Of a stretch of DNA of 64,000 nucleotides, positions 4,689 through 63,945 are shown piece by piece. Made by a program: the position numbers and the translations under genes. A model generated the notes under the pieces. That model was not told where the DNA came from. It ran no database searches and worked only from the letters and a program-made list of their open reading frames with translations. This stretch comes from Acidobacteriota bacterium (GTDB lineage: Bacteria; Acidobacteriota; Blastocatellia; Pyrinomonadales; Pyrinomonadaceae). Positions within the stretch are counted from its first letter, which is position 1. Every line of letters begins with the position of its first letter. The DNA lies in contig QQUY01000002.1 in NCBI GenBank assembly GCA_003385635.1, positions 186,001 to 250,000 on the forward strand, read 5' to 3'.

Positions 4689-5255
4689 AGATTTGTTCTA
4701 TGCCCTTTCATATGCGTCTTGACCGGTGATTGGGCGGCAAAAGGATCCACGGTAGAAAAGTTAGCCGCGAAAAATCTGGAGGATCACACAGAATACACGG
4801 GATGTACGTTTCACCAACAGGGCGTTGCGATTCGGCTTTCTGGTTCTTTGTAAATCCCTCAGTTTCCTCTGTGGTAGAAACCTTATGGTCTCCTTGAAAC
4901 CTAGCATGAGAATCAACCACCAAGGACACAGATGCTCACACAGAGTACACGAAGGGAGACTCGAGACAAAAAAAGACCGAGTAGCCGAAATGAAACATCG
5001 GGTTACTCGGTTCTCAGTACTCTTTTTTAAGTACGCTTCTTGATGGGGGCAAGTCCGCCGCTAAACGGACAATGGTCGAATCGCGATCTTCTAGCGCTTC
5101 GCACTCTGACAGGCAAGGCTGCTTGTGCCTAGGTCATCAGACCCTCACTAGATCTACGTTTCACGATTCACTACTCACTACTCACTATTCACGATTTACG
5201 ATTCACGATTTTCCCGTTCTTCTTTGATACCTGATCCTTGATACCTGATACCTGA
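4689..5255. repeat. Gene-free gap with degenerate tandem repeats
   Basis: No convincing gene in 567 bp. The left part has patches of the CACAGA/CACGAAGG-type 9-bp repeat common in this window's spacers. 5047-5072 has a partial copy of the gcaagyccgccgctaaacgg hairpin element. 5161-5209 holds seven 7-bp units of tcacgat/tcactac type, and 5224-5258 holds five units of ttgatac/ctgatac type that run up to and over the aldolase stop codon. Confidence 0.7.
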
Positions 5256-10644: not shown

Positions 10645-10673
10645 AGACAAGAACAATATAACCCAGAAGTGAG

Positions 10674-10736
10674 GAGTCAGAAGTCAGGAGTCAGGAGTCA
10701 GAAGTCAGAAGTCAGGAGTCAGGAGTCAGAAGTCAG
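10674..10736. repeat. Nine-unit period-7 array, RAGTCAG
   Basis: Nine contiguous 7-bp units (gagtcag or aagtcag) directly upstream of the DUF2585 gene start. The same unit occurs in 12 copies at 44174-44257. Confidence 0.85.
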
Positions 10737-10828
10737 GAATCTGGATTCAGAAGGCAGTTCGATTTCGTAGCCGAAGACTCGGAAGATCGTTTGCTCGGGC
10801 CGAGTCCCGGCGGGACGAGTGTATGTTA

Positions 10829-12572: not shown

Positions 12573-13025
12573 ACGGCAAAGGCATCACTCATAGATTTGA
12601 GGGGGCATTGCCATTACGCAAGAGGAAGGGGAAGGTTTCAGGGAGAAGGTCTGTTGAGTCTGTTCAGTCTGTTCGGTCTGTTCGGTCTGTTCGGTCTGTT
12701 CGGTCTGTTCAGTGGGTTGAGTCTATTGGGTTGATCGGGTCAAGAGCCCGCGAAGCGGGCGTCATTTCGATAGCCCCACGCAAGCCGAAGGCGCAGCGTG
12801 GGGTTAAGTTCGCAAAATAACCGCCAGCCGCGTAGCGGCGACATAGAATCTTCGAATGTCTATTGGCGGATGCGGGCCTCCGTCTCTTAACGTCCTTGTC
12901 CAACCTGCTCCTGGGGCTGCGCCTGCGGCTTGCCCCAGGCTAACCTCCGCTGCCCCGTCGGCGCAGAAGACTCAACATACTCAATCAACTCAACAGACCG
13001 AACAGACCCAACAGACCGACCGGAC
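12573..13025. repeat. Repeat-filled gap: inverted period-9 arrays around covarying hairpins
   Basis: No gene. 12650-12739 has ten 9-bp units (tctgttcgg type). 12969-13031 has seven units of the opposite orientation (gaccgaaca/gactcaaca type) that run over the DUF2911 stop codon. Between them lie agcccgcgaagcgggc (12744-12759), compound hairpin CCCCACGC/GCGTGGGG (12774-12803), a gccgcgtagcggcg palindrome near 12829 and compound hairpin CCTGGGG/CCCCAGG (12910-12939). Confidence 0.8.
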
Positions 13026-37724: not shown

Positions 37725-38993
37725 ATGAAACTCATTCGATCTGACATTTTGGAAAACCTGCGGATGGCGATGGATACGCTGCGGCAGAACAAGCTGCGGT
37801 CGGCGTTGACCATTCTCGGCGTCGCCATCGGGACGATAACGGTGATCGTAATCGCCGCCTTCGTATCCGGGATCGAGGCGGGAGTTTCCAAAGAGATCGA
37901 GTCCTTCGGCACAAATTCGGTCTACGCGTTCAAGTTCGATCCAGGGTTCAACTTCAATCCCTCGATGGAAGAGAGGACCCGTCCGCCGCTGACAGAAGAA
38001 GACGCGGATGCCATTCGTGAAGAATGCGACAGCTGCCTGCTCGTCTCACCCTTTATGTCGCCTGTCGACTACACCTCAGGACCCTTCGTCGACCGTGTGA
38101 TGGTTCGGAACAAGGAGATCGAGATGTCGAACGCAACGGTCACGGGCTCGTCATCCGATTATTTCCAGATGGGGGTTACCTATCTCGACGAGGGTCGAGC
38201 GTTCACGCGGGAGGAAGAGGAGACACGTGCAAAGGTCGCGGTTCTCGGAGTCGATGTGGCCAATACCCTTTTTCCGTTTACCAATGCTGTAGGCGAATAC
38301 ATCCAGATCGAGGGCCGAAGATATCGAGTGATCGGGGTTCTTGCCGAACGAGAGATATTTCTGACGAACAGCGACGACCCGAACAACGAGAACAAGTCGG
38401 TGTATCTTCCCTTCAAGACGATAAAACAGCAGTATCCGGCTAACGAAGACTGTTTCATCATGACCGTCGCAAAACCGGGCAAGGTCAATGAGGCGGTGGA
38501 GGAGATCCGCGATATCCTGCGGCAAAGGCGAAACGTTCCTTTTGGAAAGCCGGACAATTTCGGCGTGACGACCTCGGATCAGATACTGGAACAGTTCGGT
38601 GCGATAACCGGCGGTATCTTCATGCTGATGGTCGCGATCTCGAGCGTCGGGCTTTTGATCGGCGGAATCGGCGTGATGAACATAATGCTCGTCTCGGTTA
38701 CGGAAAGGACAAAAGAAATCGGAATCCGGAAGGCGATAGGCGCCCGGAGATTGGACGTGATCTCGCAGTTCCTGATCGAATCCGCGACGCTTACAAGTCT
38801 GGGTGGCACCGCCGGAATTCTGATCGGCATCGGCCTCACTCTGCTTATTAGTTCCTTCCTTCCTACCTTCGTACCGCTTTGGGCACCGGTCGTGGGCTTC
38901 GTGGTCTCTGTTGGCCTCGGCGTGGTATCCGGCCTCTGGCCCGCCTGGAAAGCCTCTAAACTGGACCCGATCGAAGCGTTGAGATTTGAGTGA
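37725..38993 (+). CDS. MacB/FtsX-type ABC transporter permease (2)
   Basis: 422 residues, paralogue of the 33143 gene with the same plan: an N-terminal helix after LRQNKLRSALTILGVAIG, a MacB periplasmic domain containing two Cys (EECDSCLLV), three C-terminal FtsX helices, VTERTKEIGIRKAIGAR and the terminal PAWKASKLDPIEALRFE. Before insertion of the mobile element the two genes would have been about 147 bp apart, probably one transcript. The insertion may now uncouple them. No ATPase subunit is in the window. Confidence 0.92.
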   Translation: MKLIRSDILENLRMAMDTLRQNKLRSALTILGVAIGTITVIVIAAFVSGIEAGVSKEIESFGTNSVYAFKFDPGFNFNPSMEERTRPPLTEEDADAIREECDSCLLVSPFMSPVDYTSGPFVDRVMVRNKEIEMSNATVTGSSSDYFQMGVTYLDEGRAFTREEEETRAKVAVLGVDVANTLFPFTNAVGEYIQIEGRRYRVIGVLAEREIFLTNSDDPNNENKSVYLPFKTIKQQYPANEDCFIMTVAKPGKVNEAVEEIRDILRQRRNVPFGKPDNFGVTTSDQILEQFGAITGGIFMLMVAISSVGLLIGGIGVMNIMLVSVTERTKEIGIRKAIGARRLDVISQFLIESATLTSLGGTAGILIGIGLTLLISSFLPTFVPLWAPVVGFVVSVGLGVVSGLWPAWKASKLDPIEALRFE

Positions 38994-39002
38994 GAATTGC
39001 AT

Positions 39003-39322
39003 TGAGCAGGGAACATTGACCAGGGACCAGTGGACATTGGTCAGGGATCAGGGATCAGGTAATCGGGAAAGTTTTTGATGGCGTGGGACTTCTTTCTTTG
39101 CCCGCTGGTCCCAAGTAGATGGTCCTTAACCAATGGTCAATGCTCCCCGGTCAATGTCCACTGGTCCTTGGTCCCTGGTCAATGTCCACTGGTCACTTGT
39201 CCTTGGTCCCTGGTCAATGCTCCCTGGTCAATGTCCACTGGTCCTTGGTCAATGCTCCCTGTTCCCTGTTCCCTGTTCCCTGTTCCCTGGTCCCTGGTCA
39301 CTGGTCCTTGTCCAATGTCAGC
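39003..39322. repeat. Large inverted pair of period-7 arrays, TGGTCNN
   Basis: 39003-39058 has eight 7-bp units (tgaccag, ggaccag, tggacat and variants). 39134-39322 has 27 contiguous units (tggtcaa, tgtccac, tggtccc, tgctccc, tgttccc and variants). The two parts are largely reverse complements and could form long stems. The array extends into the last codons of the SnoaL-like gene, whose stop is at 39298. Confidence 0.9.
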
Positions 39323-39651
39323 GGTCCCTGGTCGACGTTGTAGTATGAGACGATCTCTTTCAGCAGTCCGTTCTCAGCATAAAGCCACTCGGTGACCTCC
39401 ATTGCGAATGCCGGATTCGTGATCTTATACCTGATGCAGGCACGTTCTCCCTCAAAGATCTCGTCGTGAAATTCGAACTCGTTTCCGAGGAACTTGTCCC
39501 GGTTCGAACCCGCTATCTCCAGATAAACCTCTTTTCCGCTGATCGTGCCGTATGGGCTTGTGTGTGAGAAATCATCGGAGAGCGGGAGGTCAAGGTAGTC
39601 TCCGCTCTCCCATTTCGCAAACCAGTCGCGTACAAGTTCCTCAATCGTCAT
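39298..39651 (-). CDS. Small SnoaL-like (NTF2 fold) protein
   Basis: 117 residues without a signal peptide: MTIEELVRDWFAKWESGDY, FSHTSPYGTISGKEVYLE and VTEWLYAENGLLKEIVSYYN fit the SnoaL/NTF2-like fold of small cyclase or isomerase-like proteins. The last dozen residues (VDQGPLTLDKDQ) are encoded by the adjacent 7-bp repeat array, so the natural C-terminus may have been replaced. The stop of the DUF4199 gene lies four bases before this start, so the two are cotranscribed. Confidence 0.75.
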   Translation of the reverse strand: MTIEELVRDWFAKWESGDYLDLPLSDDFSHTSPYGTISGKEVYLEIAGSNRDKFLGNEFEFHDEIFEGERACIRYKITNPAFAMEVTEWLYAENGLLKEIVSYYNVDQGPLTLDKDQ

Positions 39652-44138: not shown

Positions 44139-44628
44139 AGCGGGATATTTATAACACAGGAGACAGAAGACAGCAGTCAGAAGTCAGAAGTCAGAAGTCA
44201 GAAGTCAGAAGTCAGAAGTCAGAAGTCAGAAGTCAGAAGTCAGAAGTCAGAAGTCAGAGAAGATATTCCAAATTCCAAATTCCAAATCTAATATTTCGTT
44301 TTCAACCGAGATTCAACGCCGTTGGGAGACCGGAACGAGTCCCGGAGGGACGGGAACAAACAAGTTCCATGTTCCGGGTTCCACGTTCCGAGTCGGGTTC
44401 AGAGTCAAAGGAAGAGTTCCGGTGAAATTTGAAATCTGCAATTTGTAATCGCGTAGCGCTTCGAAATTCGTGCGAAGCACGATTCTGAAATCAGAGATCT
44501 GCAATTTGAAACCGCGCAGCGCTCCCCCGAAATCCTTCCGGCGCCGACCAATGTTCTGATACACTCCCGGGAGCCGATCAAAATTACCCAATTTTGCTCA
44601 AATGAGCGGAACTTCCAAGGAGTCGAAT
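44139..44628. repeat. Gene-free gap made almost entirely of period-7 arrays
   Basis: 44174-44257: 12 units of agtcaga. 44267-44287: caaattc/caaatct. 44364-44391: gttccat, gttccgg, gttccac, gttccga. 44422-44449 and 44480-44513: gaaattt/gaaatct/gcaattt units, separated by a gcgtagcgct palindrome. The promoter and ribosome-binding site of the ester-cyclase-like gene are at the right end. Confidence 0.85.
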
Positions 44629-45999: not shown

Positions 46000-46335
46000 C
46001 GGATTCAGCCATTCCCTTTATGATCTGAAATTTGGAATTAGAGATTCGGCGAAAGGCGACCCACAAGCGCCGCTACGCGGCTAAAGCATTGGAGTGGGCT
46101 TTCGTGTGCTACAGATATCAGGCTCCTACGGAGCGGTGCCATTGGCCAATGCTCAATGGTCATTGGTCAATGTTGCACCGTCCGTCCGGGACTAGTTGTA
46201 TTCTTTCAACCTTCCGAGATTTCGATTGCGATCAGGGTCGAAGATTTGGAATTTGGAAGTTCTTCTCTGAAATCTGCGATCTGAAATCGCGAAGCCCGTC
46301 GGAACCTGAAACTCGGAACTTGATCATGCCTCTCG
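46000..46335. repeat. Repeat-filled gap
   Basis: No gene. Period-7 units at 46139-46173 (ccattgg, ccaatgc, tcaatgg, tcattgg, tcaatgt) and 46243-46291 (gatttgg, aatttgg, aagttct, tctctga, aatctgc and others). A gcgccgctacgcggc palindrome is near 46067-46081. Confidence 0.75.
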
Positions 46336-61380: not shown

Positions 61381-62072
61381 ATAAGTACAGTTCTCCTTTG
61401 AGATCAGGTGAATTCAATGATTTTGTAAGCAATAGGGTACTCTAAATGACCAGAATTCGAAAATGGTCACAAAGCATTGGTCATTGATCAATGTGCATTG
61501 ACCATTGACCATTGCCCTCTCAGCTTTGCGGCCCTTTGTGAAAACCTCTGTGTTCTTTGTGGTTAAATATTCTTCAGAATCTGAGTAGTAAACGTGAGGT
61601 ATACCACGAAGAGCACGAAGGTTTCACAAAGAACACTGAGCAATGATCAGTGTGCATTGGTCATTGATCATTGACCATCGACCATCGACCAATGACCATC
61701 GCCCTCTCAGCTTTGCGGCCCTTTGCGAAAACCTTGGCGTGCTTTGCGGTTAATCTGGATTGAGGTTCTGAGTTTGTTACAGAAGATCTACCACGAAGTT
61801 CACAAAGATTTCACGAAGGTCGCTGAGCAATGATCGTCGTCCCACCCGTGAACGGGATGCTAAATGGGTTACCGTTCACTGCTTTGCGATCTAGTCTCAG
61901 CCGAAGAAATGATTCGTAACGCTAAGACCATCCTAAAAAACTTCAGATGTACTCGCGGAAGTTACGGAACTTAGCCGACTGTTCACAGTTTGCGTCTGGC
62001 GGGCAAGCCCGCCGCTAAACGGCTCACTGCTTACTGCTTACTGCTCACCGCTTACCGCTTACCGCTCACCGC
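61381..62072. repeat. Repeat-filled gap with a tandem duplication
   Basis: Two copies of a block of about 180 bp, each with a period-7 cattgac-type array (61475-61516, six units; 61641-61703, nine units), then gccctctcagctttgcggcc and a CACGAAGG-type stretch; the gccctctcag landmark recurs 177 bp apart. 61999-62025 is an exact inverted copy of the 27-bp hairpin element at 31098. 62023-62085 has nine period-7 units (ctcactg, cttactg, ctcaccg, cttaccg) that cover the stop codon of the amidohydrolase gene. No gene seen. Confidence 0.85.
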
Positions 62073-63794
62073 TCACTGCTTCCTGTACGCGATCTTTCCG
62101 CCGACGATCGTGTACAGCACTTCCGTAGAAGGGATCTCGTCTTCGGGAACCGTCAGTATGTCTTTCGAAAGCACGACAATATCGGCCAGCTTACCCGGTT
62201 CGAGCGAGCCCTTGATCTCTTCTTCAAAACCGGACTTCGCAACGTTGATCGTGTAAGACCTCAGAGCCTCCATCCTGCTCATCTTCTGATCCGGATAAAA
62301 GACCGATCCGTCATTCAGCTTTCTCGAAACGGTCGAATAGTACGAAGCGATCGGCGATACATCTTCGACCGGGGCATCTGTTCCGTTCGTAACGAGTGCA
62401 CCCGATTGCATAAGCTTCTGCCAAACGTAAGCACCTTCCTCGCTTCGCTTGTCGCCGAGTCGATCGGGCACCCAGGTTCCGTCTGACGTGCAGTGAACGC
62501 CCTGCATCGATGCAATGACTCCGAGCTTTCCGAACCTCGGAATGTCATCCGGATGAAGATGCTGTGCGTGCTCGATCCGCCATCGGAGGTCCTTCTTGTC
62601 CTCATTCGCCTTGTAGGCTTCTTCAAAGATATCGAGCACCTCGCGGTTCGCGCGGTCGCCTATCGCGTGAATACAAAGCTGATAGTCATTTGCGACGGCA
62701 AGTTCGGCGGTCTTCTTTGCAGATTCGATCGGGATGAGGTTCAGGCCGCTCAGTTCTGGTGCATCGCTATACGGTTCAAGAAGCCATGCGCCGCGAGATC
62801 CGAGTGCGCCGTCGATCGAAAGCTTGATCGCCCTCACGGTAAGCATGTTGTTTCCGTGACCGATCACTCTTGTGCTCGCAAGGTTCTTCTCATGGTTTTC
62901 GTTTGAATCCCGGATCATCATCCAGAGTCGAACCGGCATTTTGCCTTCATCAACCAGTTTCCTGAGGAACTCGACCACGCCGTAACTTGACCCGGCGTCG
63001 TGGAAGGTCGTAATCCCGTTCTCAAGGACTTCTTTGGCCGCAAGTTCCGCCGCCTCGCGCATGTTCGCATCACGTTCTTCATCCGTCGCGGGACCTATAT
63101 TCGCGCTTGAGACCAGCCCTTGCGCGGTTTCCCTCACAAAGCCGGTCGGATTCCCCTCAGCGTCCCTGAGGATCTCACCGCCCGCAGGATCCTTTGTCGA
63201 AGAATCTATGTTCGCGAGTTCCATAGCCTTCGCGTTGGCAAAAGAGCCGTGTCCGCTTGCGTGCGTCAGGATCACCGGATTGTCGGGAGACACTTCACTG
63301 AGCTTGTCGTGCACAGGTAGACCTTCAACCGCCGGTTCCGGCTTTTTATCCCACTTGTCCTGATGCCATCCTCTCCCCGTGATCCATTCGCCGGGCTTGG
63401 CTTTCTTTGCCGCCTCACCGACCATCGCGACGATCTCGTCCCAGTTCTTTGGCGTCGTCAGATCGAGGATCATCTTTGCGTTCCCGATCCCCATAAAATG
63501 GCCGTGTCCTTCGTTGAAACCGGGAATGGCAAGGCGCCCCTCGAGATCGATCTTCTCTGTTTCCGGACCCACGTATTTCTGAATCTCTTCGTCGGTTCCA
63601 ACCGCGACGATCTTATCGCCCTTCACAGCGAGCGCCTGAGCTTCTGTTTCCTTTTCGTCCACAGTGACGATCTTTCCGTTCAACAGCACAAGATCGGCGG
63701 GATCGTCGACGGTCGAAGCCGTGTTTTCGCAGCCGGACAATATAAGCGCGAAGATAGCGAGCAAGACGAATGTGCCGTGGGCTAACCGTTTCAT
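62073..63794 (-). CDS. YtcJ-like amidohydrolase lipoprotein (Amidohydro_3)
   Basis: 573 residues. Lipoprotein signal with lipobox LILSGC (Cys22), unusual for a family often cytoplasmic. Amidohydrolase fold with an N-terminal beta sandwich (VLLNGKIVTVDEKETEAQALAVKGDKIVAVGT), metal-binding HxH as GHGHFMG, FHDAGSSYG, CIHAIGDRANREVL and LRWRIEHAQHL, and a C-terminal strand set ending with LEPGKLADIVVLSKD. The YtcJ subgroup acts on unknown amide substrates. AAGGAG seven bases before the ATG fixes the start. The last codons and stop lie inside a period-7 repeat array. Confidence 0.92.
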   Translation of the reverse strand: MKRLAHGTFVLLAIFALILSGCENTASTVDDPADLVLLNGKIVTVDEKETEAQALAVKGDKIVAVGTDEEIQKYVGPETEKIDLEGRLAIPGFNEGHGHFMGIGNAKMILDLTTPKNWDEIVAMVGEAAKKAKPGEWITGRGWHQDKWDKKPEPAVEGLPVHDKLSEVSPDNPVILTHASGHGSFANAKAMELANIDSSTKDPAGGEILRDAEGNPTGFVRETAQGLVSSANIGPATDEERDANMREAAELAAKEVLENGITTFHDAGSSYGVVEFLRKLVDEGKMPVRLWMMIRDSNENHEKNLASTRVIGHGNNMLTVRAIKLSIDGALGSRGAWLLEPYSDAPELSGLNLIPIESAKKTAELAVANDYQLCIHAIGDRANREVLDIFEEAYKANEDKKDLRWRIEHAQHLHPDDIPRFGKLGVIASMQGVHCTSDGTWVPDRLGDKRSEEGAYVWQKLMQSGALVTNGTDAPVEDVSPIASYYSTVSRKLNDGSVFYPDQKMSRMEALRSYTINVAKSGFEEEIKGSLEPGKLADIVVLSKDILTVPEDEIPSTEVLYTIVGGKIAYRKQ

Positions 63795-63882
63795 AAGTTG
63801 TCTCCTTGAAAGCTGATCTAGTGGGGTCGCCTAAGAATATGTGCTAGCGTATTGCGTTTTCAAGCGGGCGGGACAAATCCGG

Positions 63883-63945
63883 GTTCCGGGTTCCGGGTTC
63901 CGGGTTCAAGATTCAAAGTTCAAAAATCAAAGTTTACGGTTCAAA
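63883..63945. repeat. Nine-unit period-7 array, GTTCMRR
   Basis: Units gttccgg (three), gttcaag, attcaaa, gttcaaa, aatcaaa, gtttacg, gttcaaa. The final 206 bases of the window (63795-64000) otherwise show no gene. Confidence 0.8.

Follow-up and report, generated by a model that had tools for sequence, protein, structure and literature searches.

A gene for a MacB/FtsX permease is followed, in the window analysed here (the whole 64-kb stretch at positions 186001–250000 of contig C2 from the 4.13-Mb, three-contig genome G000), by two heptanucleotide arrays with a core between them (Table 1). The sequence-only reading had described 39003–39322 as one array whose register stays at exactly 7. Instead, the interval comprises a G-rich 5′ arm and a C-rich array that is its reverse complement, and TRF gives 5–22% indels at 39130–39333. 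The best match of the 3′ array to the 5′ arm lies at 39209–39264, with unit variants mirrored too, and the array overlaps the 3′ end of a SnoaL-like open reading frame (ORF; 39298–39651, minus strand). The window array folds as one stem of ~54 bp with a single 7-nt bulge (z −7.6).

In the sister genome G004, an inverted heptad array directly follows the same gene end. Its unit is GTGAGCG, and that of the window site is CAGGGAC/TGGTCNN: the same architecture, made from another heptad family. The SnoaL-like ORF is absent at the orthologous place in G004, where a DUF4199 gene follows directly. The closest named relatives of one window protein belong to MAGs of Pyrinomonadaceae/Blastocatellia.

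No ORF matching PF05635, the family of the intervening sequence protein (IVP) described below, occurs in the 64-kb window, coding elements with matching arms lying elsewhere in G000 (8 copies), and the window has no Rfam match, rRNA included. Other repeats adjoin some of the arrays. A 187-bp direct repeat at 61475–61835 contains CTTTGCGGCCCTTTGCGAAAACCTCGGCG, and GCAAAG/CTTTGCG stretches like it form inverted repeats in other gaps (contig C1, 712687 and 809920). REP-like palindromes (GTTTAGCGGCGGGCTTGCCCGCC, GTTTAGAGCAGCGCTTGCGCTGC and ATGCCCGTCGCTGGCGCTCCGGGTT) lie beside heptad arrays at 62000–62020 and in many gaps of C1; some of their 12-mers occur 25–35 times between genes and almost never within genes. 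The flanking motif TATCTTTC/GAAGATA, present beside some arrays, failed as a general feature.

Table 1. Heptad and period-9 arrays of the window, in window coordinates
Feature	Positions	Strand	Remarks
Two adjoining heptad arrays, different families (TTCACGA; CTGATAC)	5156–5255		
Heptad array AGTCAGA/AGTCAGG	10665–10748	+	Unit shared with the arms of G000 IVP element L243 (CAGAAGT)
Inverted pair of period-9 arrays	12649–13025 (12649–12722 and 12970–13025)		Same family as the arms of period-9 IVP element L369 (GAGTCTRTT)
Heptad array GTTCCAA	29314–29354		
5′ arm, G-rich, period 7	39004–39059	+	Starts 10 bp past the stop codon of the MacB/FtsX permease gene (37725–38993)
Core between arms	39060–39133		No similarity found, no IVP gene
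3′ array, C-rich, TGGTCNN, ~28 units with indels	39134–39333	−	Reverse complement of the 5′ arm
Heptad array CAGAAGT (13 units), joined via AGAAGATATT to ATTCCAA units	44156–44287	+	
Self-complementary heptad array TTGGTCA/TGACCAA, almost no core	46138–46172		
Two CATTGAC-family heptad arrays within a 187-bp direct repeat	61496–61698		
Heptad array GCTTACT/GCTCACC beside GGCGGGCAAGCCCGCC palindrome	62019–62080	−	Its family fills the G004 orthologue of the 39003 site
Heptad array TCCGGGT running into GTTCAAR	63878–63931		Inverted partner (TTGAAC...AACCCG) just past the window end

Period 7 in the window and the genome

Lag autocorrelation was applied to 1.34 Mb of the 4.13-Mb genome G000. In the window, where a run is at least 72% identity over 28 nt at a given lag, there are 12 runs at lag 7 and 4 at lag 9, with further runs at multiples of 7 and 9, and none at lags 2–6, 8 or 10–13. 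In 1.2 Mb of contig C1, lag 7 accounts for 158 runs, 144 of them intergenic, lag 9 for 33, lag 10 for 2, lag 5 for 1 and lag 8 for 0. By home-made gene calls, the arrays of G000 lie almost all between genes. The period-7 arrays proposed by the sequence-only reading are real, numerous and far above chance, with a sharp excess at lag 7 in both samples, and the units that it listed occur at or near the places it gave. It had missed the inverted pairing of arrays and a period-9 family (AACAGACTC), which is a second member of the same phenomenon.

Arrays form inverted pairs

In relatives of G000, a locus comprises an array, a short core and then the array again as its reverse complement; interruptions and variant units recur in mirror image on the two arms, as in L009 (CAATCTCAA/TTGAGATTG). 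The genome of L009 is G041; in 394 kb of it, adjacent arrays at most 300 bp apart form 42 inverted pairs, 0 direct pairs and 7 others. The 5′ arm is the G-rich arm in 38 of 41 pairs. Element outer edges lie at medians of 4 and 6 bp from the adjacent genes, in gaps between tandem or convergent genes, divergent gaps being depleted (2/31 versus 35/183). Cores have a median length of 61 bp (quartiles 50–81) and are mutually unrelated; shared cores of the kind found in MITEs were rejected, 2 of 861 core pairs being alike. By eye, the GGGTTCA family of G041, unlike other families, seems to share a homologous core (TTTGAATGGACAATTGACAATG...; C7 78920 and 104957, C11 10762, C4 48402). In G000 the pairing is looser, with an inverted-repeat score of at least 40 in 37.5% of array gaps versus 9% of array-free gaps.

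Ordinary microsatellite slippage, with a preference for 7 nt set by DNA polymerase contact length as proposed by Mrazek 2007 according to PMC4692102 and PMC4679880, is one rival explanation of such arrays, heptads being the commonest long SSR unit in many genomes. Slippage, however, gives direct arrays anywhere, and the pairs of G041 are inverted.

IVP genes are bracketed by inverted arms

A 31-bp gap in genome G068 corresponds to 595 bp in its relative G041 (76% amino-acid identity at the flanking gene), which hold a heptad arm, an IVP gene and an inverted heptad arm. Pfam PF05635 and NCBIfam TIGR02436 name this protein '23S rRNA intervening sequence protein'; IVP/S23p, small and widespread, has to our knowledge no established role. 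It matches the Avd protein of diversity-generating retroelements (DGRs) at sub-threshold scores (NF033474, 5e-7, 30 bits, cut-off 80; PF22296, 7e-5, 23.6 bits, cut-off 40), which suggest a DGR-Avd-like four-helix protein distantly related to Avd. The solved homologues 2GSC and 2RLD have five chains each, which suggests, without proving, that IVP is a pentamer; a single-sequence AlphaFold model was poor (pLDDT 57) and was not used.

PF05635 is present in 13 of 15 genomes searched and in 0 of 14 well-known control genomes; by phylum, it occurs in 74/146 Cyanobacteriota (the phylum of G056), 43/249 Pseudomonadota and 45/121 Chloroflexota (the phylum of G053). Taking the best-scoring IVP loci first, we collected 126 at which both flanks were available, drawn from four phyla and from plasmids, and called arms at a local alignment score of at least 24. 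Inverted arms bracket 107 of these loci, compared with 15 of 319 similar-sized control genes from three IVP-bearing genomes, and 15% of IVP loci have no recognisable arms. Armed loci show the same period on both sides, the best period being 7 in 82 of the 107, 8 in 18, 9 in 5, 6 in one and 11 in one. Armed IVP genes occur in Acidobacteriota, Cyanobacteriota, Pseudomonadota, Chloroflexota, plasmids and one viral contig (L389), which has the same arm–IVP–arm layout. Slippage does not yield one gene family bracketed at 85% of its loci, nor period-8 and period-9 lineages with both arms alike.

The gene has a dN/dS of 0.08–0.14; it is under purifying selection, and the protein therefore matters to something. 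A crude census of gene-sized cores over ~2 Mb found no other recurrent cargo, and 20 IVP loci contained no Rfam rRNA. Two IVP elements of cyanobacterial plasmids, L259 and L261, lie inside CRISPR operons (cas10/cmr3 and cas6/cas4), the genes of which are otherwise intact.

The distant match to Avd, under the cut-offs of both profiles, raises the alternative of a retroelement, with the hairpin RNA copied by a reverse transcriptase helped by an Avd-like IVP. Reverse transcriptase (RVT_1, PF00078), however, is absent from seven IVP-bearing genomes, MAG incompleteness being a caveat (G000, G004, G042, G043, G044, G049 and G058, with up to 17 IVP matches there). We rejected a reverse transcriptase acting in trans with the same caveat, and consider a retroelement very unlikely.

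Filled and empty sites

Closed cyanobacterial plasmids that are 92–98% identical carry or lack an element at single sites. At site A, an armed IVP element lies between two genes in Trichormus and Scytonema plasmids (L257/L256), with GTAAT on both sides; four plasmids of ~98% identity (L265–L268) have there an uninterrupted 13-bp gap and no array. At site D, Nostoc plasmids (~92–96% identity) differ in which of three successive gaps (1–3) in a single operon are occupied, and one gap holds non-coding elements. The empty state again has no array, and at both sites arms and IVP appear together. Further, a homologue of the site A element lies at site D, an unrelated site, and there, in L279, a non-coding element is inserted within an IVP gene, the flanks being otherwise intact. 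Because closed plasmids carry or lack the element at single sites, we read the elements as mobile; this is shown by the empty sites, movement itself not having been observed. The element carries no recombinase. Arrays are present in independent assemblies, closed plasmids included.

Duplications at the element ends vary, with 5 bp at sites A and D2, none at L279 and 7 bp for a carrier in G187. In this last case, more than ten near-identical IVP copies (L282, L379–L387) ride a TIR element with CTGAYGTTACGC ends on one cyanobacterial chromosome, with target duplications of TTACTAA, TAATTAA and TTAATAA. A universal 7-bp target duplication as the source of the heptads was rejected, 7 bp being found only with this carrier transposon. 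At one nested site within site D, L276 (425–770) and L260 (725–1020) have different cores between matching heptad arms, as if cores were exchangeable.

Arms also change by whole heptads: L257 differs from L256 by +14 nt, and G187 copies have 3 or 4 units. Whole-heptad slippage thus occurs inside the arms, and it accounts for copy number but not for architecture. Joint insertion of both arms and a gene into a non-repetitive site is beyond it. We therefore judge slippage very unlikely as the explanation of the arrays, and as a full account it is already contradicted. The sequence-only reading had offered slippage or a dedicated enzyme; neither free slippage nor a stand-alone repeat-making enzyme holds up, and what survives of that suggestion is slippage by whole heptads within arms.

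The arrays might instead have come first, IVP genes being passengers that enter existing heptad pairs by recombination. IVP copies can travel on other elements, as in G187; non-coding pairs greatly outnumber IVP genes; and the same arms can enclose different cores at one site (L276 versus L260). Against this, the empty sites A and D have no array and receive arms and IVP together, and the arm unit tracks IVP relatedness (see below), as expected of parts that travel together. Passenger IVP genes are thus quite unlikely to explain the association.

Selection on the host side offers another explanation, in which the hairpins are regulatory or structural (bidirectional terminators, RNase III sites or insulators) and IVP is a host RNA-binding protein. 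The preference for tandem and convergent gaps, the long stable stem and the refilling of the G004 site by another heptad all agree with a host role, as does the finding that 90% of Xanthomonas repeats have the same flanking genes in two species (PMC4692102). By contrast, presence or absence among near-identical plasmids, insertion inside an IVP gene (L279) and a genome-specific burst of one unit (CTCAGTC, found 752+728 times in G041 and 0 times in nine family members) look selfish. A host role is, on balance, unlikely.

Unit length is kept while sequence drifts

Above 60% IVP identity arm units are alike, and below it they diverge (Mantel p 0.001). Mapped on the IVP tree, the period has switched 10 times or more; it is more clustered than expected by chance and nearly always stays at 7–9. 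Because this repeated switching remains inside so narrow a range, it points to a geometric constraint on the period rather than to mere inheritance. The 5′ arm of IVP-bearing elements contains 36% G and 11% C, with a skew above 0 in 94% of loci; AG occurs in 0.88 of IVP-bearing units versus 0.69 of shuffled units, and the unit motif holds 4.2 bits of information versus at most 3.6 bits for shuffled units.

These results divide two earlier proposals. Units had been called unrelated in consensus: the unit does differ at nearly every locus, but IVP-bearing arms have in common that their 5′ strand is G-rich and that most units contain AG. A mechanism had been suggested that sets length and not sequence. 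In its favour, period 7 (or 8 or 9) persists despite differing units, including at the orthologous G004 site. Length is kept and sequence drifts, but this happens inside a mobile hairpin element and not by free slippage.

Loose arrays are tied to IVP arms

Of eight IVP copies in G000, all but one are armed, each with another unit (GAAGACC, CAGAAGT, GGAGACA, AGTACTG, AGGGATC and GTTGARR, and GAGTCTRTT at period 9). Among 181 loose arrays of this genome, 39.8% are within one mismatch of its own IVP arms, compared with 21% for the arms of other genomes (p 0.013) and 14% for shuffled arms. In G041 the corresponding values are 55%, 14% and 7%. For G000, the same explanation covers the period-9 arrays, 24 of 55 lying within two mismatches. 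About 60% of G000 loose arrays are more than one mismatch from every IVP arm of the genome; these may be decayed or descend from lost founders. An AG-per-unit rule for all arrays was rejected: it holds for IVP arms and G041, and G000 loose arrays show no AG enrichment.

Among 50 diverse genomes, IVP is found in 8 of the 9 with an array in a sample of ~20 kb versus 12 of the 41 others (p 0.0016). Genome G040 has arrays and no IVP was found in it; many of the compared genomes are MAGs.

A proposed mobile hairpin element

Taken together, the period-7 arrays are probably the arms at either end of short mobile hairpin elements, the coding version of which carries the IVP gene. On this account, each element consists of a 5′ arm of ~4–5 heptads, G-rich and C-poor on its strand, a core and a reverse-complement 3′ arm, so that a single strand, whether RNA or ssDNA, folds back on itself into a long stem-loop. 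Coding elements have one gene as their core, that for IVP (PF05635/TIGR02436). Non-coding elements, which are far more numerous and include those of the window, have ~60 bp of unrelated sequence there. The empty sites show that elements insert at new sites; the data also show that arms change by whole units and, for IVP-bearing arms, that units drift in sequence with the period held at 7 (occasionally 8 or 9) and the 5′ strand kept G-rich.

We infer the manner of movement and the reason for 7. The IVP protein may act on the arms and support non-coding elements in trans, and the period may be held at 7–9 by the spacing of an IVP oligomer that reads the G-rich arm. The hairpin RNA might be cleaved or folded out of the way, in the manner of the 23S rRNA intervening sequence (IVS), thereby limiting damage to the host transcript. 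In its boldest form, which we offer tentatively, this would be a class of mobile element that spans phyla and has neither recombinase nor reverse transcriptase: an Avd-like IVP ring would read the G-rich arm in 7 (8, 9)-nt steps, about one AG unit per subunit, and spread both its own gene and non-coding hairpins, and the class would be the source of most bacterial heptanucleotide repeats.

IVP arms offer an origin for bacterial repeats of a kind hitherto tallied without explanation. Two puzzles, heptad repeats and IVP, become one testable question, that of IVP binding and moving hairpins with a 7-nt register. The elements are also a warning, in that they shape predicted proteins and assemblies across repeat-rich MAGs.

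Comparison with known systems

Heptad STRR sequences of filamentous cyanobacteria are known as fingerprint markers; they share the unit of 7, in a host group that is also rich in IVP elements. Heptanucleotides are dominant among long bacterial SSRs and have been ascribed to polymerase slippage, according to 2007 work as cited in PMC4692102 and PMC4679880. Unlike a simple slippage microsatellite, the arrays described here have linked inverted partners (42 inverted versus 0 direct in G041). TAACTGA direct repeats of Beggiatoaceae, cyanobacteria and Bacteroidetes (PMC4679880) are likewise intergenic heptads, near start codons and with a patchy, horizontal-looking spread, but they are direct repeats with one indirect repeat, and no element or gene was assigned to them.

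Closer are the heptanucleotide repeats of Xanthomonas (GGGAATC) and Nostoc (GGGGAYT) described by Rehm et al. 2015 (PMC4692102), which share the intergenic position, the G-rich 7-nt unit and, in Xanthomonas, the inverted arrangement, with 70–75 convergent inverted pairs per genome. That study read them as G-quadruplex repeats unlinked to mobile elements, with one unit per genome and no link to IVP. The solved IVP homologue 2GSC is the protein named XCC0516. REP/BIME and MITE sequences are also short interspersed inverted-repeat elements with many non-coding and few coding copies, but here the arms are tandem heptads and not a fixed sequence, the cores are unrelated, and no transposase was identified. 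Unlike DGRs, G000 has no PF00078 match, and the Avd profiles score under their curated cut-offs.

The heptanucleotide excess, the inverted GGGAATC pairs in Xanthomonas and the heptads of the Coxiella 23S IVS were thus already known; the link to IVP appears to be the new part, in that the literature searched gave no report joining heptad arrays to IVP, which does not establish priority.

Finally, the 23S rRNA IVS of Coxiella and Leptospira shares with the elements described here both the protein family and terminal inverted repeats that form a long stem. In Coxiella, the IVS has an S23p/IVP ORF, a terminal stem and heptameric repeats (GACAGAT) of strain-variable number in its stem region, and is cleaved by RNase III in vitro (PMC4990558). 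Its heptameric direct repeats adjoin the ORF, as the heptameric arm units do here. By contrast with the IVS, the elements reported here lie between protein genes and not in a 23S rRNA helix, occur in many copies that mostly lack an ORF, and have arms of many units with a period of 7, 8 or 9.
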